A DNA stretch of 64,000 nucleotides from an uncultured Allobosea sp. (GTDB lineage Bacteria > Pseudomonadota > Alphaproteobacteria > Rhizobiales > Beijerinckiaceae), in assembly GCF_945956895.1 (NCBI RefSeq), contig NZ_CAMFJF010000015.1, positions 1 through 64,000 of the forward strand, in the 5' to 3' direction. Positions within the stretch are counted from its first letter, which is position 1, and the number at the start of each line of letters is the position of its first letter. Shown piece after piece: positions 714-16,991 of the stretch. The notes beneath the pieces are model-generated. The model was not told the DNA's origin and made no database searches. It worked only from the letters and a program-made list of their open reading frames with translations. The position numbers were made by a program, and so were the translations under genes.

Positions 714-1706
714 TCAATTTCTCAGGCCGATAATCTCGCCTATGCGGGCTCCCGTATCAGATTGAATAGCCGCGATATGCCGGGGAGTGTCGTCTAGTGT
801 CTTACACTCAGCCTGTATGCGCTTGAGTTCACCATTGGTGAACGTAGGGCGAGCCTTAGCGTCCTGACCATCCTTTGGAATTTTGAAGCGCAGGAATGGG
901 TTCTTGGCGTCCTTGAGGTCAAATTCATCGATGCCGTGGGTGAAGATGGCGCTCAGGGACTTGAAGTAACGCTTCACGGTGGCTGTCTTGGAGCCACTGG
1001 CGAGCATTTTGTCCCTGAGGTCATTGACGTTCTGCCTAGTGTAGGCACCCAACAGCAAATCACCATAAGCATCAGTCAGCAGTCGAACATATCGCTTGTT
1101 AGCAATATCGAACTTGTCCCCGCCGCCCTTGTGCTTGAGGTAAGAAGTCAGAACATCACTCAGGAGGATATGCTTCTGGGAGGGATCAGATAGCAGAAGG
1201 CGCGAGGCTTCTTGCTCAACGGCAGTCATCATGCTGCCGGAGTCCACCCAGTGCTGACCCTGATGCTCAAGATCGCGGGCCTCGCTGAAGGCACCTTTCG
1301 TTCGCCTGTCGACATGGTCAATGAAGACATCAATGGCGATGCCAGCCTCAGGAGTCAGGGGACCTGCCGGGCAATACGCCTCTCCAGCCTCCAGCCCTAA
1401 GAGCTTCAGAAGCTCCTTCGCCGCTGCTGTGTTCTCTGGAGTGGTCCGCCCTACCGCCCTAGCCTCAGGGGACCGCAGAGAGTCCCAGAGGCCCTCGACG
1501 CGCTTGGCTTCCTCAATGCAGAGTTTGGCGGCCTCAGCCTCGCTGTAGGTCTTCAGGCTGACTTTGTAGTGCGTCTTGCCGGGGTAGTGCTTGCGCAGGT
1601 CATCAGGGATGCGCCGCTGGTACATGTAGAGGCCCGAAGGCTTCTTCCGGGCGAGGTACTTCACGGCAACCATAAGCGGCCCAAGACGGAGGACGATTCG
1701 CGGCAC
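714..1706 (-). pseudogene. Truncated tyrosine integrase (DUF6538-type N-terminus)
   Basis: The N-terminus (YLARKKPSGLYMYQRRIPDDL) matches the arm-binding domain of DUF6538-type phage integrases. A SAM-like core-binding domain follows, and then the start of the catalytic domain with the first catalytic arginine in TGARIGEIIGLR. The protein stops four residues after that motif, so the Lys, His-x-x-Arg and Tyr elements are absent; about 100 residues are missing compared with the family. A start at 1673 (MVAVKYL) fits the family better than 1706. The 5' end lies about 80 bp from the tRNA fragment at 1788, the usual place for an integrase. I infer it belonged to another element using the same tRNA-Glu site. 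Confidence 0.75.
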
Positions 1707-1787: not shown

Positions 1788-1833
1788 TGGCGCTCCCTAG
1801 GGGACTCGAACCCCTGTTTTCGCCGTGAGAGGG
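1788..1833 (-). repeat. Left attachment site: displaced 3' fragment of tRNA-Glu
   Basis: These 46 bases are identical to 14541-14586, the segment of tRNA-Glu from the anticodon stem through the encoded CCA. The 5' part of a tRNA is missing here, so this is not a working gene. It marks the far end of the integrated element and is one half of the duplicated core attachment site. Confidence 0.9.
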
Positions 1834-1924
1834 ACAGTTTTTCAGCAATTTTATGTCCATAACCGTCTACGACGGTCTATATAAATCAATGAGTTAGAAT
1901 GTTTGCGTCCCCCATTGTCCACCG

Positions 1925-1971
1925 ATTCACAGGTCCGTATATTACACGGATATTACACGAAACCTGTGAAT
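1925..1971. promoter_or_regulatory. Inverted repeat enclosing tandem integrase arm-like sites, overlapping int start
   Basis: Perfect 10-bp inverted repeat: ATTCACAGGT at 1925-1934 and ACCTGTGAAT at 1962-1971. Between the arms lie two direct copies of TATTACACG with a 2-bp spacer (1940-1959). The right arm covers the ATG at 1970. The TATTACACG pair recurs at the other end of the element (14473-14492). I infer combined roles as an arm-type integrase site and a control site for int, either by protein binding or by a hairpin in the mRNA leader. Confidence 0.6.
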
Positions 1972-3259
1972 GGCAGCGATGGCAAAGACCCTTTCCGAGA
2001 GCCCGATGACAACCCGCTCCGCCCGCGACAAGCTCGCGCCTGGAGTGCACTGGCGCGGCATCGATAGCGGCGTTCACCTTGGCTACCGCCGTGGCCGGCG
2101 CGGCGGGGAGTGGGTGGTGCGATGGCGCGCCGGGGCTGGCTACAAGCGGGAAGGCATCGGCGCTGCTGATGACGTGCTCGCTGCGGATGGCCAGCAGACA
2201 CTGTCCTTCGATCAAGCCTTGGCCGCAGCCCGGCGCGCCGTCGAACTGGGCCGCGCGACGGCGGCAGTCGCCGCAGCGGGGCCGATCCCGACCGTCCGCA
2301 GCGCAGTCGAAACCTATCTGACAGACCGCGAAAGCAACGAACGAGCGCAGCGCCCCGACAAGCCTCTGAAGCTGGACGGGCGCTCCAGGATGAAACGCCA
2401 CGTGCTGTCCAAGCCCGTGGCCGACAAGAACCTGCATGAGCTTGAGGAAGACGACCTGAAGGACTGGCGCGCCAGCCTGACGGGCCTAGCTGCCACGAGC
2501 GTCAAGCGCACGGTCAATGATCTGAAGGCTGCCCTGAACAAGGCAGCGGACGAGAAGCGTAAAACCCTTCCTGCGCTCTCCGGCATCGTCAAAGCTGCGT
2601 TCAAGGCGACGAAAGCGTATGCTCCCATCGCGCGGCAAGTCCAGCCGCTAAGTGACGATGAGGTGCGGGCCGTTATCGCTGCCGCCTCCAAGGTGGACGA
2701 GTGCGACGGCTGGGAAGGCGATCTCTATCGGCTGGTCCTTCTGCTGGCCGCAACGGGCGCACGCTTTGGCCAGATCGCCGCTATCCGCGTTGGTGATGTC
2801 GAGAGCGCCAGCAAGCGGATCATGGTTCCCGTGAGCAACAAGGGCCGTGGCGAGAAACAGCGCGCCGCCTTCCCCGTGCAGATTGGCGACGACGTGCTGA
2901 CGGCGCTCAAGCCGGCCATTGCCCGGCGCAGGAGCAGCGACCCCTTGCTGGAACGCTGGACCCATAAGCAGACCGGCCCCGCAACGTGGGTGCGGGAACG
3001 GCGCGGCGCGTGGCAGACAGCGAGCCAGATGACGCGAGCATGGGCCAAGATTTCCGAGGAGGCGGAGTTAGCGGCCGATGTCGTGCCCTACGTCCTTCGG
3101 CATTCCAGCATCATCCGAGGGCTTCGCGCGGGCCTCTCTGTCCGGCTGGTCGCTGACCTGCACGACACTTCGGCGAAGATGATAGAGACTCACTATTCCA
3201 AATGGATAGCTGATGCCGAGACGGAGATGGCGCGCCGCGCCATCGTTGCGCTGGCCTAG
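1970..3259 (+). CDS. int: Tyrosine-type site-specific integrase
   Basis: Catalyses integration and excision of the island at tRNA-Glu. It has an N-terminal arm-binding region (about 20-100), a SAM-like core-binding domain (about 105-200) and a catalytic domain. The first catalytic Arg is Arg265 in ATGARFGQ. Box II reads YVLRHSS (residues 374-380), with Tyr where most family members have His; I recall the same variant in related rhizobial integrases. The nucleophile is Tyr409 in THYSKW. Full length at 429 aa. The start is uncertain: ATG at 1970 lies in an inverted repeat without a clear ribosome site; 1979 and 2006 are alternatives. A terminator follows at once, so it is transcribed alone. Confidence 0.93.
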   Translation: MAAMAKTLSESPMTTRSARDKLAPGVHWRGIDSGVHLGYRRGRRGGEWVVRWRAGAGYKREGIGAADDVLAADGQQTLSFDQALAAARRAVELGRATAAVAAAGPIPTVRSAVETYLTDRESNERAQRPDKPLKLDGRSRMKRHVLSKPVADKNLHELEEDDLKDWRASLTGLAATSVKRTVNDLKAALNKAADEKRKTLPALSGIVKAAFKATKAYAPIARQVQPLSDDEVRAVIAAASKVDECDGWEGDLYRLVLLLAATGARFGQIAAIRVGDVESASKRIMVPVSNKGRGEKQRAAFPVQIGDDVLTALKPAIARRRSSDPLLERWTHKQTGPATWVRERRGAWQTASQMTRAWAKISEEAELAADVVPYVLRHSSIIRGLRAGLSVRLVADLHDTSAKMIETHYSKWIADAETEMARRAIVALA

Positions 3260-3260
3260 T

Positions 3261-3286
3261 AAAACGCATAGAAAGTTATGCGTTTT
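3261..3286 (+). terminator. Palindrome/terminator behind int
   Basis: Perfect 10-bp inverted repeat AAAACGCATA / TATGCGTTTT with a 6-base loop, starting one base after the int stop. It ends in only four T, so termination would be modest. Its centre is nearly identical to 11305-11325, so it may instead, or also, bind a protein. Confidence 0.5.
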
Positions 3287-3503
3287 CAGCAGCTTAAGTA
3301 CCGACCCCGTTGACAAGGCGAGGCGCTCATGCTCTCTTACAGTCAACCATGTACGGGGGTGCAGCGGCTGCAAGGCCGCACCTAAAGCACTGTGACAGGC
3401 GGGGTGGTGCCCTGCTTCATTGGCGAGCCGAGCCAGACCCCCGCGCGAACCCACCTGATCGGTTGACATCGGTCGTGCTGACGCACGCCTCGGAGGCTTC
3501 GCC

Positions 3504-3713
3504 ATGAGCGCCAAACCCAAAACTTCGTCGGCTAACGACGGTCGCCTTGCCTATTCGCCCGAGGAGGCGGCCCGCCTCACGGGTGTCTCCCGCGCCTTTC
3601 TGTACCTCGAAATGCAGCGCGGCAAGCTGACCAGCATCAAGATCGGCCGTCGCCGGCTTATCCGCAGGAGCGATCTGCTCGCCTGGGTTGGGGAGGCAGA
3701 GCATGCAGCCTGA
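3504..3713 (+). CDS. AlpA/excisionase-like helix-turn-helix protein
   Basis: A 69-residue DNA-binding protein with a MerR-like winged helix typical of AlpA/Xis and HTH_17 proteins: YSPEEAARLTGVSRAFLYLEMQRGKLTSIKIG, then RRLIRRSDLLAWV (residues about 17-60). In related elements such proteins steer the integrase toward excision or activate element genes. GGAGG lies 8 bases upstream of the ATG. It begins the operon that runs to the replication protein and overlaps the next gene. It is separated from int by 244 bp. Assignment to excisionase rather than regulator is inference. Confidence 0.85.
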   Translation: MSAKPKTSSANDGRLAYSPEEAARLTGVSRAFLYLEMQRGKLTSIKIGRRRLIRRSDLLAWVGEAEHAA

Positions 3714-3960
3714 AGCTCCCCCGCAGCTAGCCGCGCCCCCGAAGCTCAGCGCCGCCGGACTCGCCGCGATCATGGCCCAACCACACTGGCCATCAATCCT
3801 GACGACGGCCTCCTCGGCTGCGCCGGCCCACCCTGTCGCTTCACCTGAGATCGCCGCGCACGCCCCGCTGCTGAACCGCCCGACCAGCCGCCGCGCGAAG
3901 CGTCGCGCGCGCGGCAAAGCCAAGGAGGATCGCAATGACAGCGCTGCTTTATCTCGTTGA
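3703..3960 (+). CDS. Hypothetical basic, Ala/Pro-rich protein (85 aa)
   Basis: An 85-residue protein with no recognised domain. It is rich in Ala and Pro up to about residue 65 and ends in a strongly basic stretch (RRAKRRARGKAKEDR) that could bind nucleic acid. The start at 3703 is supported by GGGGAGG about 8 bases upstream. It overlaps the HTH gene by 11 bp and the following gene by 26 bp, which suggests translational coupling. Low complexity makes this the least certain gene of the operon. Confidence 0.45.
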   Translation: MQPEAPPQLAAPPKLSAAGLAAIMAQPHWPSILTTASSAAPAHPVASPEIAAHAPLLNRPTSRRAKRRARGKAKEDRNDSAALSR

Positions 3961-4270
3961 GCGATCCGAGGAAGGCGTCTGGCGCGTCGTCCTTCGAAGA
4001 GCCTGGCGCGATCACCTCGGCGAGCAGATGCGCCAGTATGGATGGCTCTGGCGGGAGCCGGCCAGCACCTTCCGCGACGCATTCGATGCGTACTGCTGGC
4101 AGCGATATCCGGGCGGTCCGATCTTCTACTCCGACCCCATCGGCGGAATGGTCGGAAGCGTCCAAAGCCTGGAGACGCTCCACGCCTTCGGCTTCATCCG
4201 TGCATTTGGGGAGCCAATAGAGAACGGCACCGACCCTATCGAGCTGGTGCCGTCCAATTCGCAAAGCTGA
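3935..4270 (+). CDS. Hypothetical protein (111 aa)
   Basis: A 111-residue soluble protein without a family I recognise. A perfect AAGGAGG ribosome site lies 6 bases before ATG 3935, so it is almost certainly translated. It is rich in aromatic residues (several Trp and Tyr between 15 and 60) and has no membrane segment. It sits within the operon from the AlpA-like gene to the PrimPol gene, so a role in replication, excision or control of the element is a reasonable guess and no more. Confidence 0.65.
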   Translation: MTALLYLVERSEEGVWRVVLRRAWRDHLGEQMRQYGWLWREPASTFRDAFDAYCWQRYPGGPIFYSDPIGGMVGSVQSLETLHAFGFIRAFGEPIENGTDPIELVPSNSQS

Positions 4271-4328
4271 AGACAACTACCCGCGTAGGCCTGGCCGCCG
4301 ACACGCGCTCAACCGGAGTGGCCCAATT

Positions 4329-4571
4329 ATGCAGAAAATATTTGTGAAATACAACCGCTGGCGCGGACGGATCACCTATATCGAGATCGATCCCCTGTTG
4401 GGCGCGTTGCACTACAGCGAGCCGGCTCTGGCCGAGGCCAAGCCTGAACCGCTGACGATAGCCGACGAACATCTCGGCCCGCTGATTGTTTCGCCGGATG
4501 CCCCTGGCAACCCTCGCCGCACCCTCGCTCCACCATGCGCCGTGACGCGCACGACCGCAGGGGAGCGCTGA
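4329..4571 (+). CDS. Hypothetical protein (80 aa)
   Basis: An 80-residue protein. The N-terminal half (MQKIFVKYNRWRGRITYIEID) looks folded and beta-rich; the C-terminal third is Pro/Arg-rich. A weak GGAG lies about 11 bases upstream. Its stop codon is 2 bases from the ATG of the PrimPol gene, whose ribosome site is inside it, so the two are probably coupled. No family recognised. Confidence 0.5.
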   Translation: MQKIFVKYNRWRGRITYIEIDPLLGALHYSEPALAEAKPEPLTIADEHLGPLIVSPDAPGNPRRTLAPPCAVTRTTAGER

Positions 4572-4573
4572 CC

Positions 4574-7039
4574 ATGGCTGACCGCGATCCTTTCGATAGC
4601 TGGTTCGGCGAGCGCAAAGCTCCTGAGCCCGATACTTCACCATCCGAACCGATGAGCAGCCATTACAGCGCGGCCGCGCCGCGCCGACTAGGCGGACGGA
4701 TAGAGCAGTCTACGCCCGCCGAAGATTGGGATGATGAGCCGGCCACCTCCGGACCCGTCACTATGCTGGATCATGCGTTGGCCATGATTGGAAGGGGCTG
4801 CAAGGTTATCCGCGTCCAAGCGAACACCAGGCGTCCAGTTGACGAGCGCTGGCAGAACGACGCAACCGACGACGCCGCTAAAGTGAAGGCGTGGGTTGAC
4901 GCCGGCTATAGCTACGGGATCTCGGGCGGGCACCCGCTTCCGGCCGGTGGCCACTTGCTCATTGTCGATCTGGACGTGAAGGACGGGAAAGACGGCGTCG
5001 CCGAACTCGCGAAATACGGCACCCGGCCCGAAACCTTCACCGTCCGCTCGCCGTCTGGCGGGCTTCACCTCTATTTTTCGACTTGGCAAGCGCATGGGTG
5101 CTCGCCGGGAGGTTTTCGCCGGCTAGACGAGAGCGGCCAGGACGTGAGTGGCATCGATATCCGAGGCCGTGGCGGTCAGTGTGTTGGGCCGGGCTGCATG
5201 CGGGACGGGAAGTCCTATGAGGTGGTTTGCGACGCTCCAATCGCCGAAGCCCCGGCCTGGCTGGTCAATCGGCTTCAGACCGCCCGTGAACGCGAAGGCG
5301 GCCCGGCCGTCAGCATCGACGATCCTGACGACATCGTATTCGCAATTCACTATCTCCAGAAAGACGCGCCTATCGCGGTCGAGGGACGCGGCGGCAACAA
5401 CACCACCTACGCGGTCGCGGCGCGCGTTGTCGAGATCGGGGTCTCGGCCGAGCGCGCGGCCGACCTTATGGCCGAGCACTGGAACGAGCGGTGCCTGCCA
5501 CCGTGGACCCGTGAAGAACTGCTGACCCTCTGCACGAACGCGCAGAACTATGTCCAGACCCGCCAGGGCTCGGGCGGTGTCGCCGCCGCTGCGGCCGACT
5601 GGCAAGGCGCGGTGGTGCTCCCGCCTTCCCCGCCGCCCTCCTCGGCCGCCGGCCCGATCTTCGATCCATGGCGCGAGGTGATCGTTCCCGCCCTCCCGCA
5701 GGGCTTGCTGCCTGGCTCTATCGACCGCTTCGCCTCGGAGCAGAGCACCACCATGGGGGCATGCCGAAGTGCCATCGGGCTCGCCGCGCTGGCGGCGCTC
5801 TCGGGTGCGGTCAACCATGCTACGTCGCTGCGGATGATGCGCAACGGCGGGTGGTCCGCGAGCCCGCGCCTCTGGCTGCTGCTAGCCGGGCCGCCGTCCA
5901 GCAAAAAGACGCCCATCATCGGCGAGGCCCTGCGGCCGCTGGAAAAGCTCCAGGCTCAACGCTGGCGAGCGTGGAAAGAGCATTGCGATTTCCTTGGCGA
6001 AGACGACCAGAAGCCTCCTCAACCGGCGCGGCTCGTGGCCGGCGATGTCACCATGGAGGCGTTGGCCGGCATCTTGGCGGGGCAGGATCGCGGCGTTCTG
6101 GTCAAGCGAGACGAGCTTGCGGGCTGGATTGGCAGCATGGAGAAATACGGCAGCGGTCGCGGACCAATGGCCGACCGCGCATTTTGGTTGGAGGCGTTCA
6201 ACGGCGGCCCATATACCGTGGATCGCGTTACGCGCGGCAGCATTGTCGTCCCGAACCTGTCGGTCTCCATCATAGGCGGCATCCAGCCTGACCGGCTTAC
6301 TGAGCTTCAGGGGCTCCAGTCGGACGGGCTGTTGCAGCGCTTCCTGCCGGTTTTCGTCGAGCCGGGCCGCGTTGCCGAGGATCGGCCGGTATCGAATGCC
6401 GGGTATTCGGCTCTGATCGAGAGCGCGGCCGGCCTGGACGCGATGCGCTTCGAGTTCGATGATGCAGCACTGAAGATCGCAGCGCGGTTCCGTCAGCGGA
6501 CGCATGATCTACAAATGGCGGCCGAGACCACGAGACCGGGCTTCGCTCAGTTCGTCGGCAAGCTCGATGGCTTGTTTGGCACGCTGTCACTGCTGTTTCA
6601 TGTCGCCGAGGGGCTAGAGCACTGGTTCTCGGAGCGCGTGATCAGCGAAACAGCCGAACGTGTCGAGACGCTGTTTTCGGAGTTCATCCTTCCGCACGCT
6701 TTCGAATTCTACGGCTTTGCCGATCAGGCTGCGGGAACGGACAAGCTCCGCAAGATTGCTTCGTGGGTGCTCACATCCGGGCGCGAGAGGCTGACCACCC
6801 GCGACGCCATGCGAGAGGTATCCTGCCTTCGCGACCTGGACGCCTTCAGGATCGGCCGTGAGCTTGGACCTCTTGTTGCGGGTGGATGGCTTGAGCCGGA
6901 CAACCACGGGCCGGAGAACCGCACCTGGAAGGTGCTGCCCGGCGTCTTGCCTCAGTTCGCGGAGCGCCGAGCGGCCGAGGAGCGCCGAAAGCAGGAGTTG
7001 GCTCGGCTGATGAACGGGCCACGCAGGGCAAGCGGTTAG
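4574..7039 (+). CDS. PrimPol - DUF3987 replication protein (primase/polymerase with ATPase-like module)
   Basis: Likely initiates replication of the excised element. Residues about 45-240 are a bifunctional primase/polymerase domain: metal ligands in IVDLDVKDG (Asp132, Asp134), SGGLHLYF with His165, and GIDIRGRGG. Residues about 380-800 form a DUF3987 module with a P-loop-like GPPSSKKT (439-446). Such fusions are the replication proteins of many integrated satellites and plasmids. The start at 4574 follows AGGGGAGCG; an upstream ATG at 4535 would overlap the preceding gene. At 821 aa it is full length with no frameshift. A short primosome-like helicase role for the C-terminal part is inferred from family context. 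Confidence 0.9.
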   Translation: MADRDPFDSWFGERKAPEPDTSPSEPMSSHYSAAAPRRLGGRIEQSTPAEDWDDEPATSGPVTMLDHALAMIGRGCKVIRVQANTRRPVDERWQNDATDDAAKVKAWVDAGYSYGISGGHPLPAGGHLLIVDLDVKDGKDGVAELAKYGTRPETFTVRSPSGGLHLYFSTWQAHGCSPGGFRRLDESGQDVSGIDIRGRGGQCVGPGCMRDGKSYEVVCDAPIAEAPAWLVNRLQTAREREGGPAVSIDDPDDIVFAIHYLQKDAPIAVEGRGGNNTTYAVAARVVEIGVSAERAADLMAEHWNERCLPPWTREELLTLCTNAQNYVQTRQGSGGVAAAAADWQGAVVLPPSPPPSSAAGPIFDPWREVIVPALPQGLLPGSIDRFASEQSTTMGACRSAIGLAALAALSGAVNHATSLRMMRNGGWSASPRLWLLLAGPPSSKKTPIIGEALRPLEKLQAQRWRAWKEHCDFLGEDDQKPPQPARLVAGDVTMEALAGILAGQDRGVLVKRDELAGWIGSMEKYGSGRGPMADRAFWLEAFNGGPYTVDRVTRGSIVVPNLSVSIIGGIQPDRLTELQGLQSDGLLQRFLPVFVEPGRVAEDRPVSNAGYSALIESAAGLDAMRFEFDDAALKIAARFRQRTHDLQMAAETTRPGFAQFVGKLDGLFGTLSLLFHVAEGLEHWFSERVISETAERVETLFSEFILPHAFEFYGFADQAAGTDKLRKIASWVLTSGRERLTTRDAMREVSCLRDLDAFRIGRELGPLVAGGWLEPDNHGPENRTWKVLPGVLPQFAERRAAEERRKQELARLMNGPRRASG

Positions 7040-7138
7040 GGGCTGCCGGGATCGCTTCCACGATGCGGCGATGGCGGGTAAGCCTCGATCAGGGGAATGG
7101 TGACGCGCTCCGCGTCACCGCAGGGCTATGGGCACCGT

Positions 7139-7657
7139 ATGAACCACCTTGAGCAACTCGTATCAGAGTGGCTTCAATATAGAGGCTACTTCGTGCGCCA
7201 ATCCGTTGCAGTTGGCGCACGCGCCAAAGGCGGTTTTGAAGGCGAGCTTGACGTTGTCGCGCTGAATCCGGTCACTCAGCACCTGCTACATGTTGAATGC
7301 TCGTTGGACGCCCTTTCGACTGAGCAGCGACAACTCCGGTTTTCCGGAAAATTTGAGCGCGGCCGAAAATACATAAAGGATGCATTTCGAGGCATCGAAC
7401 TGCCCGAAACGCTGGAGCAGGTGCTTGTTCTCCAGTTCGCCAGCGGCAATGTCAGGTCGATCGGTGGCGCGCGGCTCGTGACCGTCAGAGAGTTTGTCCA
7501 CGAGATGTTCGACGGCCTGAAGGGTACATCTCCCGCGAGCAAGGCCGTCCCGAGCAATCTCCCGCTACTCCGCACGATACAGCTAGCCGCCGACGCAACG
7601 CGCATTCGAGCAAACGGGCATCGTATCATCAGCGAAGCGCAGACTAGCGAGCACTAG
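7139..7657 (+). CDS. Possible restriction-endonuclease-fold protein (172 aa)
   Basis: A small protein whose N-terminal 60 residues resemble the core of the PD-(D/E)xK fold: an alpha helix (NHLEQLVSEWLQYRGYFVRQS), then GELDVVALNP (Glu36, Asp38) and LLHVECSLD (Glu53). The usual Lys after Glu53 is replaced (E-C-S), so catalysis is uncertain. The rest is helical with no other motif. The ATG at 7139 is preferred to 7097, which would add an unrelated leader. It follows the PrimPol gene by 99 bp in the same direction. It could be an element-encoded nuclease, defence effector or DNA-binding relic. Confidence 0.55.
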   Translation: MNHLEQLVSEWLQYRGYFVRQSVAVGARAKGGFEGELDVVALNPVTQHLLHVECSLDALSTEQRQLRFSGKFERGRKYIKDAFRGIELPETLEQVLVLQFASGNVRSIGGARLVTVREFVHEMFDGLKGTSPASKAVPSNLPLLRTIQLAADATRIRANGHRIISEAQTSEH

Positions 7658-7705
7658 CACGGATTGGCCGCTTTCGATGAATTGCGGAGCATTCATCGCG
7701 CCCTT

Positions 7706-7818
7706 GTCAGCATTTGTCGATACGCGAGCGCGAATAGAAACCTATTGTCTCTCTCCTTCTTCTTTCTCCCGCAACTTTGAGCATCCTTGTCCAGGCGCGC
7801 GTATCGACAAATGCTGAC
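7706..7818. repeat. Long perfect inverted repeat (2 x 21 bp, 71-bp spacer)
   Basis: The arms 7706-7726 and 7798-7818 are exact reverse complements over 21 bp (arm core CATTTGTCGATACGCG). The 71-bp spacer is pyrimidine-rich on the plus strand (a run of C/T around 7745-7770). The whole lies in a 384-bp gene-free gap (7658-8041) after the possible nuclease gene. It could be a large transcript hairpin, a replication origin, or a footprint of a small inverted-repeat insertion. No transposase is present and I see no target duplication. Confidence 0.75.
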
Positions 7819-8041
7819 GGCATTGAAGCGACGCCCATGGCCGCAAGCCGATGAAACGGCAGTTTGCAGCGGCAATAGCGCAATCCGAGAGAACCAAAGT
7901 TTGCAGGGACGGTGCCTTGGCCCGGCGTTGGGACGTGCGAAGGCGCGACGGTGCTCCGGGGATGCACTAATCCGTGCCGGGCCTCTGGACACACTTTACC
8001 CTGTGGCTTTTCATGCGACGCCTGCCGCTGGGGAATGCGCG

Positions 8042-8443
8042 ATGTCGGAGTTAGTTCCACTGGATTTGAGTTCTTCGTGGTTTCCTGATCCGCAGTTCGA
8101 AGACAGGACGGCGGAACCACGAAAGACGGCTTGGGCGGCTTATGCCCAAGCACTCACAGCCGCACTGGATCGCTACGAAACTGAGAAACTGAAAGCTCGA
8201 TCCGAGTATCTGAAAAATCGCAGGAGCTATCTGTCAGGAAGCATCCTTCGGCCGACATTGAAGCAACTGATGTATGTTTGGCCGACAGATGCACAGCTTG
8301 CCGAATTCGATGAGCTAGAGGCTGTGCACCTCGCTGAACACGAAAGAATGGTATTCAATGCTGCGCGCGAGTACGCGCGCTCTGAGCGTGATGCGTGCAT
8401 TGCTTATTGGAAAGCCACGGGGGCTTCTGAGAGGCCGGCCTAA
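8042..8443 (+). CDS. Hypothetical protein (133 aa)
   Basis: A 133-residue, mostly helical, charged protein; no domain recognised. The start at 8042 (MSELVPLDL) has GGGGAA about 7 bases upstream, and the open frame further 5' runs through the non-coding inverted-repeat region. It contains several Lys/Glu/Arg-rich helices ([35 protein letters not shown]) that could form a coiled coil. Its stop overlaps the 3' end of umuC on the other strand by 4 bp. Confidence 0.55.
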
Positions 8444-9720
8444 CAAGCCGCGATCACCGGCACCTCATCAATCCGCGTGGTCCAGCACGGCGAGCGCATC
8501 TCGAATTTCGTAGTCCACGCCTTGCGCTGACGCTCGACACCGGCAGCGGCTGGAAAGACGGTCCCGCGTCCGAACCTGGCATTGCAGGCATCGAGCGCAG
8601 CCATGAGCCGGCCACTGTGCTCGCGATCCAATGCGCCGATCAACGCGCGCTGCGATAGCTCCGGCGCGACCAGATCGACCGTCATCAGCCCGACCTTGCT
8701 GTAGCGATGGCCGCCTTTCCAGATGCGTCGCGCGCCCCATTTCGCCGCCCGGACCAGAACGAGTGTGTCATTGCTCGCCTCGGGAAAATCGACCGTGGTC
8801 GAGACGGACCTGGCCGGCCCGATGTCGTGCGGAGAGGTATGGTAGAACACCGTCACATGGTCGGTTGCGAGGCCGTGATGCCGGAGCTTTTCGCCGAGCC
8901 GAGTGGCGTGCGATGCGACGGCCTCCAGCATCGTCGCCAGATCATCCACGCGGCCGGAAAATGAGCGCGTAACGGCGCATCCTTTGCGCGTCGGGGCGAC
9001 GCTCTCCAGGTCGATGCAGGGCGTGCCGCGTAGCTCATGGATAATCCGCTCCCCGACGACCGTCATAACCTTGCGGACCTGCTTCGGATCAAGCGCCGCG
9101 ACATCCGCCGCGCTCTTGCAGCCGATGGCCGCGAGCTTGGCCTGGGAAGCCGCGCCGATGCCCCATACGTCGCCTAGCGGCATCAGCGGCAACCACTCGG
9201 CCCGTGCCGCCGGGCTGGTGAGATCGCAGACGCCGCCAAGCTGGGGCGTATCTTTCGCGATGCGATTGGCGAGCTTGGCCAGCGTCTTCGTCGGCCCGAT
9301 GCCGACGCAGGTCGGAACCCCGGTCCAGGCGGTCACGGTTGCCCGCAGATCGCGCGCCATCTCCTCGCGATGCTCTGGCGCGACTGGCGTCACGTCCAGA
9401 AAGCTCTCATCTATGGAATAGGTCTCGATCTCCGAGGCGAACCGCTCATAGACGGTGCCCATGCGCCGGCTCATGTCGCCATAAAGGGCATAGTTCGACG
9501 AGAACACCCTGACGCCGCCGCGCTTCACGATGTCCCGAATCAGGAACATCGGCGCGCCCATCTTGATCCCGAGCGCCTTGGCCTCGGCCGTGCGCGCTAC
9601 CGCGCAGCCGTCATTGTTGGACAGGACAATGACCGGCTTGCCCTTCAGCGCCGGATCAAAGACGCGCTCGCAAGAGCAATAGAAGCTGTTGCCGTCGATC
9701 AGGGCGAACGAGCGCGTCAC
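8440..9720 (-). CDS. umuC: UmuC-family Y-family DNA polymerase (Pol V catalytic subunit)
   Basis: Translesion DNA polymerase acting with UmuD' in SOS mutagenesis. The N-terminus [17 protein letters not shown] carries the first metal-binding Asp and the UmuC-type Cys pair; [10 protein letters not shown] holds the second acidic pair (near residue 100); HhH motifs and the little-finger domain follow. Its 426 residues match the usual 420-430. The ATG overlaps the umuD stop by 4 bp (ATGA), so the pair is translationally coupled and controlled by the LexA box upstream of umuD. Element-borne umuDC genes are well known on plasmids and integrative elements (RumAB, RulAB). Confidence 0.95.
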
Positions 9721-10139
9721 CGGCGAAAGCGCCGGACGGCATTGGTGATGACGCCGAAAATCTCGATATCGGCATCGGGGCCAGGCTCATAGGCGGGATA
9801 GCGTCGGTTGCCGTACGCGAGACATGGCCGGCCCCCGACTAAACGAAAGAGCTTCACGCTGCGCTCGCCATTCACGTCCACCACGATCGCATCGCCGTCG
9901 CGGGGCTTCAGGCTGCGATCCACGGTGATAAGGCTGCCGTCGAATATGCCGGCATCCATGGCGCTATCGCCCTGCACGGTCATGATGAACGTCGCCGGAG
10001 CGTTCTGGATCAAGGTTCGCGACAGGTCGATAGGCGCATCCAGATAGTCATCGGCCGGCGACGGAAAACCGGCGCAAACCGGCTTCAGGAAGCAGGGCAG
10101 AAAGCGGGGTTGCCCGATGATCGCCGGGTGAAGCTGCAT
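9717..10139 (-). CDS. umuD: UmuD-type self-cleaving translesion subunit (S24 family)
   Basis: RecA-stimulated self-cleavage would yield UmuD', the partner of UmuC. The cleavage site is Ala23-Gly24 in [12 protein letters not shown], equal in position to Cys24-Gly25 of E. coli UmuD. The catalytic Ser59 lies in [14 protein letters not shown] and Lys96 in ERSVKLF, matching the Ser60/Lys97 dyad. At 140 aa the length is normal. It is first in a two-gene operon with umuC. A LexA box lies 24 bp upstream, so it should be DNA-damage inducible. Confidence 0.95.
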
Positions 10140-10162
10140 GATGCTGATGCTCTCGCTAATGA

Positions 10163-10177
10163 GAACATAATAAGAAC
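10163..10177 (-). promoter_or_regulatory. LexA (SOS) box of umuDC
   Basis: On the minus strand the sequence is GTTC-TTATTAT-GTTC, the GTTC-N7-GTTC operator bound by LexA in Alphaproteobacteria. It lies 24 bp before the umuD start, a position that would block transcription. Chromosomal LexA would thus control an element-borne mutagenesis operon. Confidence 0.85.
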
Positions 10178-10237
10178 ATCAGTAGAGCGGCGGCTGTCAA
10201 TCGAAACATCGGAGCAGCGGTGGAAAGCCGCGCTGTG

Positions 10238-10918
10238 CTATGCTGCCATCCGCTGCAAAATGCGCTGGACCTGCACGGCCTGCCATTGCGTCTTGCCGGA
10301 TCGGGTCGGCACTCCCCGGCTGGTTAGCTCCCGCGCGATGGCCCCGGCCGATGTTGCGCCGGTCTCGGCTCGCACTGTCTCGATAGCGGCAGCTAGATCG
10401 GCCGCGAAGGTCTGCGCCTTGGCCGTGCGAGCCGTATTGCCGAGGTTGCGCACGGCTTCGGAGATCATCGCCCCGCGATGGCCGCCAAGCTTCACGCCAC
10501 GCGCCTTCGCTGCCGCGAGCGCGGATTTGGTCCGGGCGCTAATCATCTTGCGCTCGGCTTGAGCCATAACCGCCATGATTTGCACAACCAGTTCATTCGC
10601 TTCCGGCATGTCTGCCGCGACGAATGGCACCCCGGCATTTTGTAGCCCGATCAGGAAGTGAGCATCGCGCGACAAGCGGTCGAGCTTTGCGATGACCAGC
10701 CGCGCCCCGTAGACGCGGCAAGCCTGGAGCGCCTTGGCCAATTCAGCACGGTCGTTGCGCTTGCCGCTCTCGATCTCTGTGAACTCGGCTTGCAGACGCC
10801 AATCGCCTCCGTTCAGGAACGACCGTACGGCCTCGCGCTGGGCTTCAAGCCCCAAGCCTGACCGGCCCTGCTTCGCGGTCGAGACGCGGTAATAGGCCAC
10901 GAAAGCACCTGTTGCCAT
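10238..10918 (-). CDS. Serine recombinase, resolvase/invertase family
   Basis: Small serine recombinase of 226 aa. The catalytic N-terminal domain begins FVAYYRVSTAKQGRSGLGLEAQ (Ser13 in the YRVST motif), followed by ARLVIAKLDRLSRD (the conserved Lys-Asp-Arg-Ser segment) and the dimer helix around MAQAERKMISARTKSAL. The C-terminal part, with a recombinase-like region ending TRSGKTQWQAVQVQRIL, resembles the start of larger recombinases' DNA-binding domains. It may resolve dimers of the element, act as an invertase, or be an independent passenger. It is upstream of and in the same direction as umuDC, separated by 98 bp holding the LexA box. Confidence 0.88.
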   Translation of the reverse strand: MATGAFVAYYRVSTAKQGRSGLGLEAQREAVRSFLNGGDWRLQAEFTEIESGKRNDRAELAKALQACRVYGARLVIAKLDRLSRDAHFLIGLQNAGVPFVAADMPEANELVVQIMAVMAQAERKMISARTKSALAAAKARGVKLGGHRGAMISEAVRNLGNTARTAKAQTFAADLAAAIETVRAETGATSAGAIARELTSRGVPTRSGKTQWQAVQVQRILQRMAA

Positions 10919-11412
10919 GCCTTACACTCCAATCGACGAACCTTGATTGAAATGTAATGCCCTCGGATTCGCGTGGTCAAGCGCTTTGTCTGTGCTAGGC
11001 TTTGCTGCCTGGCGTGCAGAGCCTGCCGGATGGCATGCGATGCCATCGCCATTGGTGGTGCGCGCAAGCCCCCCACTCGCGACCCGAGCCAGCGGCAATG
11101 CCGCGCCGGCCGGTCGGCTGAACTCATGCGGGAATCGAGCACAACGGATTGCGAATTTCGCCCCCCGGTAGGCCCCAAAGCCAGCCCAACGTCGCCGCGC
11201 GGTATCGCGTACCCATAGTTCCGGTTATTTGGCGCTGCTAACAATAGTTTGCAAGTTACGAGAACTACTTTTCCCATCGACGCGCAATACAACGACGCGG
11301 ATGTAATGCATAACTTTCCATGCGTAATACAAAAACGGTCGAATACAAATTTTATGCTTCACGAAGCGTCGTTTTAACGTTACGCTCCGGCGAAATTCAT
11401 TGGAGCTTCGCC
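10919..11412. other. Non-coding, A/T-rich control region between divergent units
   Basis: This 494-bp gap lies between the leftward serine recombinase gene and the rightward unknown operon. Its right part (11230-11400) is clearly more A/T-rich than its surroundings. It holds AATACAA three times (11286, 11326, 11342) and the palindrome at 11305-11325 related to the one behind int. No coding frame looks real. Probable promoter and operator region of the operon starting at 11413. Confidence 0.5.
11305..11325. repeat. Palindrome nearly identical to that at 3264-3284
   Basis: Read on the minus strand this segment matches 3264-3284 at 19 of 21 positions (shared core GAAAGTTATGC flanked by ACGCAT). 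Two copies of one imperfect palindrome in one 13-kb element, one behind int and one before the unknown operon, suggest a binding site for an element-encoded protein. Confidence 0.55.
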
Positions 11413-12090
11413 GTGTCCGCCGCAGTGTCTGCATCACTCGCCAAGTCCGGCCCCCGCTCTGCGCGGGAACAACTCGCTCGCCAGGCTTCCGCACTCGAAA
11501 GCCAGTGTCAGAAGCTCGGGCTGGCGGTCGGCGACGCCCGCGCCGAGTGCAACCGTGCGACGGCGCGCGCCGCCACGGACGGAAGCAAGATCGCCAGTGA
11601 GGCCAAGGCTTCAGCCACTGACTCAGTCGTCCGGGCCGAGGCCGAACTGAAGGCCGCGCAGGACGCGCTCCAGCAGGTGCAGGCCGATTTGTCAGCGCTC
11701 GACGCGAAACGCGCCAGCGCGGCCGAGGCCCCCAAGCTCAAGGCAGCCGGCGCGGCCGTGCAATCGCTTATCCAGCACGCCGAGAAAGCCGACCGGGCGG
11801 CGGTCGAGTTCGCCAAGAGCTTCCAAGCGCTGGTCGAGGAAGTCGGCCGGCTCTACGCCGTGATGCCGCCTCATCTGAAGGAGCCCGTCTTTGGCGGGGG
11901 GCAGAACCTCGGGGCGCAGGCTCTGCTAAGCACGGCGTCCTATCTCATCTCCAAGTCGAGCGTCATTCCCCGGCCGCTGCACGCGCCGTCCGAACACCGC
12001 CAATCGCTGGCCTCGCTGGTGGCCTATTTCGGCAAGCCGGTGCTGGACGAAGCCGCCGCCGCTCCGCAGCCGGAAACCGAATGGGAGTGA
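11413..12090 (+). CDS. Coiled-coil protein of unknown function (225 aa)
   Basis: The GTG at 11413 with GGAG about 8 bases upstream is preferred to an ATG at 11320, which lies in the A/T-rich control region. Residues about 10-130 are Ala/Glu/Lys/Gln-rich with heptad character (REQLARQASALESQCQKLG; AEAELKAAQDALQQVQADLSALDAK), predicting a long coiled coil. A compact C-terminal region has the motif RLYAVMPPHLKEPVF. No signal peptide or membrane segment. Its stop overlaps the next gene's ATG (ATGA), so the two are coupled. Family not recognised; a structural or scaffold-like role is only a guess. Confidence 0.65.
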   Translation: MSAAVSASLAKSGPRSAREQLARQASALESQCQKLGLAVGDARAECNRATARAATDGSKIASEAKASATDSVVRAEAELKAAQDALQQVQADLSALDAKRASAAEAPKLKAAGAAVQSLIQHAEKADRAAVEFAKSFQALVEEVGRLYAVMPPHLKEPVFGGGQNLGAQALLSTASYLISKSSVIPRPLHAPSEHRQSLASLVAYFGKPVLDEAAAAPQPETEWE

Positions 12091-12533
12091 TGGCCATGGG
12101 CTACAGCCCTGCCGAAGCGGCGCTCTATTGGGCGTCGGACCATGCCCAGCCCGGCGCGGCTGTTGAAGTCCTTCTATCGCCCGGCGAGCGCCTGCATGTT
12201 CGTGTCGTGGCACCATACAGCCGGCGCGCAGAGCGTCGCTTTCGGGAAGCCGTGCTGCACGTCAACGCCGATGACGACGACCTGACTGCCTCGCCGCCGG
12301 CTGAAGCCCATCTCAGCGTCACCCTTCGCAGTACGGCCTTCGGCGCAAGCGACACAGCCCCGCTGTCTCTGAGCCTGCCGCCAGAGGTTGCGCTGGTCAT
12401 CCTGCCGGCCGCTGGCCATCTCGTGCATGCCCGTCCCGAGCCGAAGGAACTGACGGTTGAATGCCCCGCGCTACCGGCGTGTGCCAGGCAGGACCGCCAG
12501 CGCGCCGCCCCCAACGCTTTCGCTCAACTCTGA
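12090..12533 (+). CDS. Hypothetical beta-rich protein (147 aa)
   Basis: The start at 12090 overlaps the preceding stop codon by one base, with GGAG 3 bases upstream of the ATG inside the previous gene. The sequence alternates hydrophobic and polar residues (AAVEVLLSPGERLHVRVVAPY; EAHLSVTLRSTAFG; LSLSLPPEVALVIL), which predicts beta strands and a compact sandwich-like fold. No known motif and no signal peptide. It is the middle gene of a tight three-gene cluster on the island; partner proteins are probably its neighbours. Confidence 0.6.
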   Translation: MAMGYSPAEAALYWASDHAQPGAAVEVLLSPGERLHVRVVAPYSRRAERRFREAVLHVNADDDDLTASPPAEAHLSVTLRSTAFGASDTAPLSLSLPPEVALVILPAAGHLVHARPEPKELTVECPALPACARQDRQRAAPNAFAQL

Positions 12534-12539
12534 AAGGCA

Positions 12540-13262
12540 ATGACTATGTCCGAAGCCCCGATCCCGACCAGCCAGGCCCCGGCCGCGCACGAGCCCGCCG
12601 GCTATGCTCCGATCGGCACCACCGCGAGCCGTTCGGCCGCCCCGAGCGTGGAACAGCTTGCTGCCATGGACGCCCTGACCGCCAGGATGGCCGGCATGGA
12701 CCGTGATCCGGCCGGGCGCGAGCGACTGATGAAAGCGGTGCACGACGAAATCACGGCCGGCGGCAGCGGTCTCGTCGCGCTAGGTGTGGACCCGGCCCGC
12801 ACGGCCGCCGAGGCGCAGCACAGGACTATCGCGGACCAATCTGGCGACGCGGCGGCAGCCGGCACGACCCCGGCGGCCGAGTACACCGTGCTTGCTCCCC
12901 ACGCTTTCCAGGATGCGAACGAAAGAGACGCCTTTGGCGCGGCAGCGAGCGCGGCAGGCCTTGATGTGCGCGTTGTGGCGTCTCTCGTCGCCGGGGTCGC
13001 CGGCGACAAGCGCATCGCTGATGCAATTGCAGCCGGTAATGCAGGCATGGACAGAAGGGTTGCCGAGGTTCGCCAGTTTTTTGCCCGGCAACCCGGAGGC
13101 TTGGACGAGCTGCGACTAGCGGTGGCTTTTGGCGAAAGCCTGGTGGCGAAAGACGCACGCCTGCAAGCCAGCTTTGATGCGGCGATCCTCTCTGAAGACG
13201 CTCTCTTCAGCCTCGCGGCAGAAGCGCGACGGCTCGGATTTGCCGCGCCGGATCGCAGATGA
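12540..13262 (+). CDS. Hypothetical protein (240 aa), faint resemblance to phage scaffold-type proteins
   Basis: Third gene of the cluster, 6 bp after the previous stop, with GAAAGG upstream. Residues 1-110 are low-complexity Ala/Pro/Thr-rich and likely disordered. Residues about 115-240 are folded and helical: EYTVLAPHAFQDANERDAFGAAASAAGLDVRVVASLV, then a helical tail ending DALFSLAAEARRLGF. The first helix set recalls the pattern in some phage head-scaffold proteins, where a short strand is followed by two helices. That likeness is weak and from memory. No enzymatic motif is visible. Confidence 0.6.
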   Translation: MTMSEAPIPTSQAPAAHEPAGYAPIGTTASRSAAPSVEQLAAMDALTARMAGMDRDPAGRERLMKAVHDEITAGGSGLVALGVDPARTAAEAQHRTIADQSGDAAAAGTTPAAEYTVLAPHAFQDANERDAFGAAASAAGLDVRVVASLVAGVAGDKRIADAIAAGNAGMDRRVAEVRQFFARQPGGLDELRLAVAFGESLVAKDARLQASFDAAILSEDALFSLAAEARRLGFAAPDRR

Positions 13263-13350
13263 TCTAGCGGCCGGCTGCCCGCTTAGAGCGGGCACAGAGG
13301 GTCCGTCTAGACGGACTGGATCACCGGAAGCTTTTCAGCATGCCGGTGGC

Positions 13351-14373
13351 ATGCAAAGTCTTGCCACCATGAACGACGCTCCCGCCCGAAATAGCGACGA
13401 CCTGGCTCGCCTCATCCAAGAAACTCTGAGCGAGTTGGGATACGCGGCGGATGCAAAGGCTATTGCTGAGCGCGTCGTTGGGTTGAATCGTGGCCTGCCG
13501 GCAGAGGACGAGTTCAGCGTTATATGTAGTTGGCTGGGTCGAACCACGCTCATCCATAAGCTCGACCAGGTGCAAGCGCCAGCATCATCACGCGCGACGT
13601 ATCAAGTTCCAGACCTGTTCGCGAATTTCAAAGACGCCGGCCCCTGCCTTGTTGAAGTGAAGGTCAGCAAAGATCAAACAATCTCATTTCGACCCGACTA
13701 TATGGGAAAGATCAAGGCTTACGCCGATCTAATCGGCCGCCCACTCCTGATTGCCTGGAAATATAATTCCATTTGGATGCTTTTTGAAGCGCGGCACATG
13801 CGCCTTGCAAACGTCAACTTTAACATTAGCCTCTCGGAGGCATTGCGACAAAATCTGCTCGGCGTTTTGGTTGGAGATGTAGCTTTCGGCATATCCGAAA
13901 AATCTGGCGTTCATTTTGAGTGCGCCAAAGAAGAATTGCTTCATACCGAGAAACGCGATGATGATTCTGGCATTAGCTTTTCGGAGCAATGGCGGATGAG
14001 AATATCTGATGTATACTTTACTGACCGAGAAGGACAGCGTCGTAACGACCTTCATCCTGAAACGCAACAGATTTTCACTGGGCTGGAGCTTGAGTCGGAC
14101 GAAGAGCATTTTCCAGATCGCATCAAACTGAGCTTCCGCCCTCGCGAAGATCAAATGCAGTTCGCGCACACCGCTTTGGTTCACCTGCTTAACTGGGAGC
14201 GTTCAGGGGAGCAGCCGCAAAATTGGCGACACCTATTGCATGCGCCAACAGTGATCCGCTCGATTGAGAATTTCGGCCACGCTCTCGAACGCGCCCTGTC
14301 TGAGAAGGTTGTGCGGCTGATTCTCCATCAGCAGCCTGTGGACTGGCCCGAGTTCCTGCCGCGACGACCGTGA
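13351..14373 (+). CDS. PD-(D/E)xK nuclease-fold protein of unknown function (340 aa)
   Basis: Residues 1-75 are helical. Then comes a clear PD-(D/E)xK core: VPDLFANF (Pro87, Asp88), 13 residues, and VEVKVS (Glu102, Lys104), followed by a helix (YMGKIKAYADLIGRPLLIAWK) as in Holliday-junction resolvase and restriction folds. A long C-terminal region (about 170-340) has no recognised domain. Start 13351 or 13369; neither has a strong ribosome site. It is 88 bp behind the three-gene cluster. Codon use is A/T-richer than its neighbours, suggesting separate acquisition. It may be a restriction, anti-phage or element-processing nuclease. Confidence 0.75.
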   Translation: MQSLATMNDAPARNSDDLARLIQETLSELGYAADAKAIAERVVGLNRGLPAEDEFSVICSWLGRTTLIHKLDQVQAPASSRATYQVPDLFANFKDAGPCLVEVKVSKDQTISFRPDYMGKIKAYADLIGRPLLIAWKYNSIWMLFEARHMRLANVNFNISLSEALRQNLLGVLVGDVAFGISEKSGVHFECAKEELLHTEKRDDDSGISFSEQWRMRISDVYFTDREGQRRNDLHPETQQIFTGLELESDEEHFPDRIKLSFRPREDQMQFAHTALVHLLNWERSGEQPQNWRHLLHAPTVIRSIENFGHALERALSEKVVRLILHQQPVDWPEFLPRRP

Positions 14374-14472
14374 CCGGCGACCAGGGCTGGTGCGCGGCAC
14401 ACCTGAAGCCGCCACCGGCGAAAAAGGTGTCTGCCGGCATTGATTGGAATCCACCGAAAGCCACCGCCGTCT

Positions 14473-14492
14473 TATTACACGGATATTACACG
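14473..14492. repeat. Right-end arm-like sites (TATTACACG twice)
   Basis: Identical over 20 bp to 1940-1959 at the other end of the element: two direct TATTACACG copies with a 2-bp spacer. It lies 48 bp from the core repeat. In the excised circle the two pairs would flank the 46-bp core, the usual layout of a tyrosine-integrase attP. Confidence 0.65.
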
Positions 14493-14540
14493 CCCCGAAG
14501 GGCGCAACCCGCTAAATCATTGATTTAATTGAAAAAACGG

Positions 14541-14586
14541 TGGCGCTCCCTAGGGGACTCGAACCCCTGTTTTCGCCGTGAGAGGG
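14541..14586 (-). repeat. Right attachment site within tRNA-Glu
   Basis: The second copy of the 46-bp core repeat, covering the tRNA from the anticodon stem to CCA. The identity to 1788-1833 ends exactly after CCA. Strand exchange within the anticodon-loop region is usual for this integrase class. Confidence 0.9.
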
Positions 14587-14616
14587 CGACGTCCTAGACC
14601 GCTAGACGAAGGGAGC
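14541..14616 (-). tRNA. tRNA-Glu (anticodon CTC)
   Basis: A 76-nt cloverleaf with an encoded CCA. Acceptor stem GCTCCCT/AGGGAGC, D arm with TCTAGCGGTCTAGGA, anticodon stem TCGCC/GGCGA around loop CTCTCAC (anticodon CTC, reads GAG), T arm AGGGG-TTCGAGT-CCCCT. It is intact because the island restored its 3' part on insertion. Its 3' end faces the island. Confidence 0.96.
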
Positions 14617-14941
14617 AGCGCTGGCCGAGGGCGCCTATGTAGTCGGACAACCGCGCCGCCGCAACAGCTTTTTGCATCGCCCCGGCATAAAGATGCAAAA
14701 CGGGATAAACACGCAGCGAAAAGCCCTTCTCTCTGGGGATAACGGCTCGTATTTTGCGCGTTTTCTCGCTGATCACCGCCGAACACCCGCTCTCCGCGTC
14801 ACCCGGGTCGGGGGGAGCACGCCATCGAAAACCATTCAGGATGGCCCATCGGCAGTTGTCCTTCTCTGGATGAAGCCCGATGCTCATCCGGTCCGGGACG
14901 GTATCGGCCGGCCCGCTTCAAGCTGGGATAGCGACGCAGCC
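14617..14941. other. Gene-free stretch between tRNA-Glu and comF
   Basis: 325 bp holding the tRNA-Glu promoter on the minus strand and the comF promoter on the plus strand. The open frame of comF extends upstream here, but without a ribosome site or family similarity before 14942. No other element seen. Confidence 0.4.
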
Positions 14942-15823: not shown

Positions 15824-15851
15824 GGCGGATCGAAACGAGAGACGCGTCCCG

Positions 15852-16109
15852 ATGCCGCCGGTCACGATCTACACCACCTCCTGGTGCCCCTATTGCAAGG
15901 CCGCCAAAGCCCTGTTAACCCGCAAGGGCGTGGTCTTCGCCGAGATCGATGTCGACGGCAAGCCTGAGCTGCGCCAGGCCATGACCGCGCGCGCTGGCGG
16001 CCGCACCTCGGTTCCGCAGATCTTCATCGGCGAGAAGCATGTCGGCGGCTCGGACGATATCCATTCGCTCGACGCCCGCGGCAAGCTCGACGAGCTCCTG
16101 GCCGCCTGA
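15852..16109 (+). CDS. grxC: Glutaredoxin 3
   Basis: An 85-residue dithiol glutaredoxin that reduces disulfides and glutathione adducts in the cytoplasm. The active site is CPYC (Cys12, Cys15). The cis-proline loop SVPQIFI and the C-terminal GGSDDIHSLD glutathione-binding segment are present. The start at 15852 gives the family's standard length; an earlier in-frame start at 15801 would overlap comF. Likely co-transcribed with comF and the DUF1178 gene downstream. Confidence 0.95.
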   Translation: MPPVTIYTTSWCPYCKAAKALLTRKGVVFAEIDVDGKPELRQAMTARAGGRTSVPQIFIGEKHVGGSDDIHSLDARGKLDELLAA

Positions 16110-16189
16110 GTCAGAGCAGGCCACCCCCGCCTCAGTGTTCCGCCACTAGCCATTTGCCTTGGCGGCTGCGCGCCACCATCTATGACGAC

Positions 16190-16678: not shown

Positions 16679-16991
16679 CGCACCTCTCGATCGGTTCCGA
16701 TCACGAAACCGCGCTCGCGACGGCTTTCATCAGTGCCGGCATTACGATTTTGACAACCTATGGGAAGCGGCCCGGACGAAATTTTTCGATGTGGCATCAC
16801 GATCTTTTTCGTTTTGTAACAAGGCGGTATCAGCCGGGCGCCTCCTGTCGCGAGACGCTCGAAGGCCCTTCGCTCCGCCTCCCCCCTTCCTTCCCGGATT
16901 AACTTTCTGTTATGGAATTCGCGGTTCCTTGCCGGCAATCCCGGTTTGCCGCCCTCGGCGATCACGGGTCCGGAACTCAGGAGGTTGCCGC
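16679..16991. other. Intergenic region before the SleB-type hydrolase gene
   Basis: 313 bp without a credible gene. It should contain the promoter of the hydrolase gene; I could not identify one with confidence. Confidence 0.35.

Follow-up and report, generated by a model that had tools for sequence, protein, structure and literature searches.

PICMI elements are known from Vibrionaceae. In PICMI115, excision requires int, alpA and iolg, full replication requires the primase, and expression of alpA alone triggers activation (PMC10803314). A relaxed model of these elements recovers 135 of them, 67 in Vibrionaceae and 68 elsewhere, and DUF3987, by its name a domain of unknown function, is one primase family used to find satellites (PMC10803314). 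The PICI origin lies directly 3' of the replication gene and consists of two iteron sets that flank an AT-rich region (PMC6092414), and the origin of the archaeal PrimPol plasmid pRN1 is a required stem-loop of roughly 100 bp, with a stem of 21 nt and a loop of 58 nt, that begins 54 bp after the PrimPol gene, of which the family conserves the structure and not the sequence (PMC4234260). Herein, we analysed a 64,000-nt stretch of DNA from an uncultured Allobosea sp. (the window), which is the start of contig C15 of the host draft genome, and the 12,753-bp unit that 46-bp repeats delimit at its tRNA-Glu(ctc) gene. We put the probability at roughly 55% that this unit is a complete, tRNA-specific and excisable element of the phage-satellite type, with a DUF3987-associated dyad as its origin and packaging by a helper. 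The ends, candidate arm sites, open genes, relatives, dyad and size range were read from the sequence, and the rest of the cycle is inferred.

The ends of the element are marked by a perfect 46-bp direct repeat (1788-1833 and 14541-14586), which is the 3' 46 nt of tRNA-Glu(ctc), the sole tRNA detected in the window. The initial annotation had placed one copy inside an intact tRNA-Glu gene and the other displaced from it, and both places proved exact. A search of the 4.9-Mb draft genome with positions 1700-1900 gave matches only at the two repeat places. From the coordinates it follows that the predicted excised circle would join 14586 to 1834. The G+C content is 62.7% in the element vs 67.6% in the right core. 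The features at the ends are as follows.

1788..1833, no strand: displaced 46-bp copy, outer element end (repeat search)
1940..1959, plus strand: candidate integrase arm site, two 9-mers 11 bp apart (sequence match)
1970..3259, plus strand: int, tyrosine recombinase, PF00589 (Pfam)
14473..14492, plus strand: candidate arm site, same 20-bp word, 48 bp from the tRNA (sequence match)
14541..14586, no strand: 46-bp copy within the tRNA gene (tRNA and repeat search)
14541..14616, minus strand: intact tRNA-Glu(ctc), the integration site (tRNA search; Rfam)

The 20-bp word TATTACACGGATATTACACG, which is two 9-mers 11 bp apart, is present inside both element ends, 106 and 48 bp from the two 46-bp copies. 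With up to 3 mismatches it has two matches in the window, where 0 are expected. In a scan of the fetched loci of at least 1 kb, it occurred elsewhere only in genome G070, next to tRNA-Arg(ccg), and in genome G001, next to tRNA-Glu(ctc), with an identical word and the same word-tRNA spacing of 47-48 bp. Genomes G250 and G167 carry a different word near both ends, GGTAGCTA, partly in pairs 11 bp apart. We read the paired 9-mer words as candidate integrase arm sites; the distribution would look like one arm word per integrase type, retained while the tRNA changes. A word common to two tRNA kinds would show the movement of one integrase type between tRNA sites. The integrase itself matched PF00589 with 40 bits (cut-off 27.1), as the PICMI definition asks, and R265, K291, R377, H398 and Y409, which we take to be catalytic residues, are invariant in five integrases aligned. 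The arm-type words, the integrase residues and two complete relatives (G167 and G250) support the initial call, an entire integrative element exactly bounded at tRNA-Glu, more strongly than the 46-bp repeat does by itself.

The initial annotation had also taken the missing palindromic repeats of the neighbouring core as boundary evidence, which we rejected: the core motifs occur 3 times each in 49.4 kb, so that 0.8 would be expected in the 12.7-kb element, and 0 found carries no weight. The motifs in the core (window:14617-64000) are few, with three copies each (e.g. GATCCCGGATC).

All genes that had been listed for the element were recovered, namely those for the tyrosine integrase, an AlpA-like HTH_17 protein, a Prim-Pol plus DUF3987 protein, umuD/umuC, a serine recombinase and several open reading frames (ORFs) without assignment. 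The interior of the element contains:

3504..3713, plus strand: alpA-like excisionase/regulator, PF12728 and TIGR01764 (family libraries)
3935..4270, plus strand: ORF without family match (ORF list, Pfam)
4574..7039, plus strand: PrimPol-DUF3987 replication protein (Pfam, PHROGs; start assigned separately)
7097..7657, plus strand: ORF without family match (ORF list, family scans)
7706..7818, no strand: inverted repeat, 21-bp perfect stem and 71-nt loop, candidate replication origin (folding, repeat search)
8042..8443, plus strand: ORF with a homolog in G250, 66% over 132 aa (sequence comparison)
8440..9720, minus strand: umuC, cargo (Pfam, PHROGs)
9717..10139, minus strand: umuD, cargo (Pfam, PHROGs)
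10163..10177, minus strand: LexA-box-like GTTCN7GTTC upstream of umuD (pattern match)
10238..10918, minus strand: serine recombinase, resolvase/invertase type (Pfam, PHROGs)
11413..12090, plus strand: coil, predicted long helical hairpin, conserved block (homologs, structure model; start assigned separately)
12081..12533, plus strand: b3, small block protein, about 39-40% to relatives (sequence comparison)
12540..13262, plus strand: A1, helical block protein (homologs, structure model)
13369..14373, plus strand: Hjc-like nuclease-domain protein, possibly cargo (PF01870 30.8 bits, cut-off 21.1; below the cut-off in a second scan)

The alpA-like product scored 47.2 bits against PF12728 (cut-off 27), one of the two families, with PF05930, that define AlpA in PICMI, and the replication protein scored 150.4 bits against PF13148, the DUF3987 primase of that definition. 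At an E-value of 0.01 the latter matched PF09250 and PF13148 only, vs the SF3 helicase and winged helix of the pRN1 type. A LexA-like box (consensus GTTCN7GTTC) lies 23 bp upstream of umuD. Since 34 of 100 shuffles matched as often in the window, its position is what speaks for it. Host SOS regulation of umuDC by way of this box is possible, a proposal that does not extend to excision.

In the cycle we propose, which is drawn from the literature on pRN1, PICI and PICMI115 (PMC4234260, PMC6092414, PMC10803314), the integrase, with AlpA as directionality factor, would recombine the two 46-bp copies by way of the paired 9-bp arm sites and release a 12,753-bp circle. PrimPol-DUF3987 would then initiate replication at the dyad (7706-7818), and the serine recombinase would resolve multimers. 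After replication, the coil-b3-A1 block would act in packaging, capsid interaction or interference, and a helper phage would package the element DNA, umuDC being exchangeable cargo.

The initial annotation had left the class between a phage satellite and a non-conjugative island. We favour the satellite on gene order, the candidate origin, the narrow size range and the lack of a relaxase and of clear phage structural genes in the ORFs scanned; dependence on a helper is a conjecture. With PHROGs, 18 window ORFs gave no portal, capsid, terminase or tail gene apart from weak coil matches, unlike a prophage. The best-surviving alternative, which we judge somewhat unlikely, is an element akin to an integrative plasmid, or a cargo island, that would excise and replicate but owe its transfer to foreign conjugation systems or accidental transduction rather than to a satellite cycle. 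The iteron-like dyad and the serine recombinase would equally fit a plasmid, umuDC is common on plasmids and the source of nearly all plasmid matches, and no phage-interference or packaging gene was recognised. However, no relaxase was found among 19 ORFs scanned with Pfam, so the element does not qualify as integrative-mobilizable; coil had no match in 72,556 plasmid records; and no plasmid record covers 80% of the element, the best reaching 13%. The narrow size range and the int-alpA-primase order, as in satellites, likewise argue against a plasmid.

The candidate origin of the putative satellite is the dyad at 7706-7818, with a perfect 21-bp stem and a 71-nt loop (z -7.1, folded as DNA). 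The dyad of G250 has the same geometry and different outer letters, with the same GATACGCG adjoining the loop; the CTTGCGCGC-type dyad pattern is absent from the host genome, the window dyad being of the GATACGCG kind. By search, the DUF3987 family was present in 19/297 genomes of the order. We assembled 24 DUF3987 loci, 20 from the order search (some read from longer stretches) and 4 from another search, and scored a dyad as a stem of at least 15 and a loop of at most 130 from 30 bp before to 800 bp after the stop codon. An inverted repeat was found in 15 of the 24 loci, among which L116, L117 and like loci are close relatives, vs 0.05 expected from shuffles, and inside the DUF3987 genes there were 3 in 54,351 bp. 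The idea of a dyad had come from the window and G250; with a stem of at least 17 it was also seen in G040, G139, G448 and G444 and was not seen in G046, G405 and G198, and the limit was then lowered to 15, after the first view of the loci. Among the 15 loci outside this first look, 7 have a dyad with a stem of at least 15 and 2 with at least 17. Several loci below the limit look alike by eye (uncounted).

The arms of the eight dyads listed pair with at most one mismatch, and their sequences are all different. Their best period is 9 in 7 of the 8 and 10, weakly, in the window, so that the listed arms are mostly tandem 9-bp words. The loops span 52-89 nt with 46-57% AT (51% in the window). A large stem-loop 3' of the PrimPol gene, kept by structure and not by sequence, is found here as in the pRN1 family (15/24 loci; eight arm sequences). 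A test for frequent 6-mers as iterons was significant in 7/24 DUF3987 loci only. In G167, where the primase is an AAA_25-type PrimPol, many TGCGCA words and an AT-rich stretch lie downstream (L068:6640-7000), a possible iteron origin; the 6-mer test on 400 bp past the primase stop was not significant.

From its recurrence and form, the dyad is likely a replication start common to many related elements. A limited literature search on DUF3987 turned up no described origin, and the available text of the PICMI paper contains neither the term 'iteron' nor 'inverted repeat' (PMC10803314). If a dyad directly behind the gene is the origin, it could be tested across many elements together, and bacterial satellites would be linked to archaeal PrimPol plasmids. 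That the dyad is instead a transcription terminator or a regulatory RNA appears improbable. Its place would suit a terminator in 13 of 15 loci, where it starts between 20 bp before the stop codon and 88 bp after it; in L121 the start is at 179. In contrast, the loops of 52-89 nt, the period-9 arms (7/8) and an arm sequence that differs in each dyad fit one poorly; Rfam gave no match except tRNA in the window, G250 and G167 regions; and the like structure of pRN1 is required, whereas the terminator there is dispensable (PMC4234260).

Complete relatives of the element were found in another genus, in G167 (12,340 bp) and G250 (12,036 bp), both with 51-bp repeats at tRNA-Arg(acg). The window, G167 and G250 have in common an integrase, the alpA-like helix-turn-helix gene, PrimPol, serine recombinase, coil, b3 and A1, with an integrase in G167 and G250 of another type than that of the window. 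The second half of PrimPol is exchanged (DUF3987 in the window and G250, AAA_25 in G167), and so is the cargo: umuDC in the window, and elsewhere a SIR2 gene matching PDC-S65 or a PIN toxin gene. The SIR2 proteins (L056:12648-14393, minus strand; L068:7281-9053, minus strand), which two genera carry at these element sites, match this candidate defence family over nearly their whole length. G167, G250 and G070 also encode two further small block proteins, b1 and b2, for which no counterpart was found in the window. G167 and G250 have an ORF that overlaps int by 1 nt (TGATG in G167). In G250 the interior from alpA to A1 is flipped relative to int and the ends when compared with G167 (L067 vs L068), with a shared block 95.6% identical over 3.3 kb. 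Inverted sites were sought at the breakpoints and none was convincing; inversion of the interior by the serine recombinase is only an idea.

The coil profile matched 3/397 genomes of the order (window, G167, G250) and, in the second family, 2/12 (G167, G250), and A1 matched 4/67 genomes of the genus, two as fragments only. Named homologs of A1 and coil occur in Bosea sp. BE271 and AK1, which makes Bosea the probable genus of the host. The longest contigs of 5 of 25 A1 homologs measure 13,127-13,597 bp, and none measures 8,226-13,127 or 13,597-34,006 bp. Equal clustering arose in 15 of 20,000 draws of a smoothed resampling, whose test width was that of the observed cluster and was chosen after seeing it. 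Because sizes of 13,142 and 13,181 bp recur among the contigs of coil and PrimPol homologs, these equal lengths suggest that the 13.1-13.6-kb contigs are whole units assembled alone, like circles or packaged DNA. IMG/VR contigs L042-L050 (7/9 of 38-44 kb) carry a PrimPol alike in its first half to that of the window, a possible source of the replication gene or helper lineage.

The conserved block of these elements, which comes after int-alpA-PrimPol, consists of the serine recombinase, the helical-hairpin protein coil, small protein(s) and helical A1. It lies at the tRNA side in the window, G167, G070 and G001 (A1 fragments) and is inverted in G250. The coil, b and A1 proteins match no family library except weakly, with coil showing weak PHROGs matches to tape measure (E 0.0027) and major head (E 0.034), and the A1 and coil models are helical with no convincing structural match. 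By eye, A1 begins with an EAPIPT-like peptide and coil ends with a TEWE-like peptide, and variable linkers connect these peptides with the remainder of each protein, an arrangement suggestive of docking within an assembly. That the block is directed at a helper is a guess. It offers a handle to find further members, and the role of its relative-less proteins is testable by gene removal.

The surroundings indicate a hotspot. The flanks had been described as core, which stands for the right side (from 14617 on); the left neighbour is not plain core and holds a truncated integrase gene. As the contig begins at window position 1, the true left core lies outside the view.

714..1706, minus strand: truncated DUF6538-type tyrosine recombinase, outside the element (Pfam: DUF6538 above, Int_N below the cut-off)

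This gene starts about 80 bp outside the displaced 46-bp copy and stops just past the first catalytic Arg motif; the two remaining frames showed no C-terminal part. It is probably what is left of an earlier neighbouring element, which suggests previous use of the site. In 7/17 relatives with a fetched tRNA-Glu flank, an ORF of one integrase-like cluster lies within 118 bp; the one of the seven that was scanned with Pfam scored 26.6 bits against PF00589 (cut-off 27.1). G032 (L083, G032:C2:946800-966700) carries 18.6 kb of DNA between two identical copies of 49 bp at the same tRNA-Glu; this element includes umuC remnants and a serine recombinase that shares 69% identity with the one in G250. G001 holds decayed remnants of the family of the window near a SIR2 gene.

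Given this older integrase remnant and the decay of the G001 relative to fragments, the element could be a dead relic, once mobile and now fixed in the tRNA gene. We consider this quite improbable: the 46-bp copies are identical, the dyad is perfectly paired, and integrase, alpA, PrimPol, serine recombinase, coil, b3 and A1 are all open. A small autonomous virus whose coil-b-A1 block makes its own particle is highly improbable, despite the block being conserved along with the unit size and its proteins having only weak family matches, since no packaging ATPase, portal or known capsid fold was recognised and the helical A1 and coil models match no structure convincingly.

A candidate helper for the proposed satellite is a prophage on contig C9 of the host genome, which follows tRNA-Ser(gct) and encodes an integrase, portal, major head, terminase and tape measure; its span (L138, G000:C9:115500-134799, at 4717-17868) is near the contig end. 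Several results weigh against the satellite interpretation. Comparison of the element with this prophage gave no clear sequence match (best E 0.06) and no common gene at E 0.01, and neither a circle nor packaging nor a helper was observed. The element ORF scans revealed no phage packaging or capsid-remodelling gene; among 18 window ORFs, PHROGs likewise gave no capsid-size, terS or other packaging or interference gene, though such genes may escape recognition. A1 and coil have no confirmed IMG/VR locus, and A1 has no match in 50,697 phage records. At 666 bp past the stop codon, the window dyad is the most distant of the 15. Tyr374 occupies the box-II position in 5/5 integrases, where His is usual in tyrosine recombinases. 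Lastly, the comparison of tRNA-Glu loci for empty sites, which the initial annotation had proposed, gave no clean one among 17 loci and pointed to variable content on that side.

A wider proposition, which we offer tentatively and hold at less than even odds, is that these elements form an undescribed satellite family of this order, marked by a serine recombinase/coil-b-A1 block that would act on the helper particle. Inverted 9-bp iterons 3' of the primase would then be a general DUF3987 origin, the bacterial counterpart of that of pRN1, with iteron and initiator changing together to keep co-resident elements compatible.

Compared with the described systems, the element is most readily set beside PICMI, with which it shares the gene order int, alpA, DUF3987 primase and the form of a small integrative element with direct-repeat ends (PMC10803314). 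The iolg of PICMI overlaps by 1, 4 or 13 nt, and the int-overlapping ORF of G167 and G250 by 1 nt (PMC10803314); in contrast, the window has no such ORF. A site beside fis is called a hallmark of PICMI, whereas the site here is tRNA-Glu, and PICMI115 has 6.1 kb and the average PICMI 6.7 kb, so that 12,753 bp lies outside their range of about 6-7 kb (PMC10803314). Unlike PICMI, the window element adds a serine recombinase and the coil-b-A1 block. PICI/SaPI-type elements are alike in having an integrase, an excision function and a replication gene with a candidate origin 3' of it, in which a spacer separates two sets of short repeats (PMC6092414). They differ in that the primase here is PrimPol-DUF3987, no capsid-size, terS or interference gene was recognised, and the spacer has only 46-57% AT in the eight dyads listed; against the PICI origin layout, the dyad is 666 bp off with a loop of 51% AT and is a candidate origin only. 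VEIMEs and tycheposons, set beside it by description only, are likewise environmental bacterial integrative elements and likely satellites (PMC11389934, PMC10803314). With pRN1 and its ORF904 PrimPol, the element shares a stem-loop 3' of the PrimPol gene, a 21-nt stem and a loop of several tens of nt (PMC4234260). It departs from pRN1 in that bacterial integrative elements are concerned, DUF3987 replaces the SF3 helicase/winged-helix part, and the arms are mostly tandem 9-bp words.

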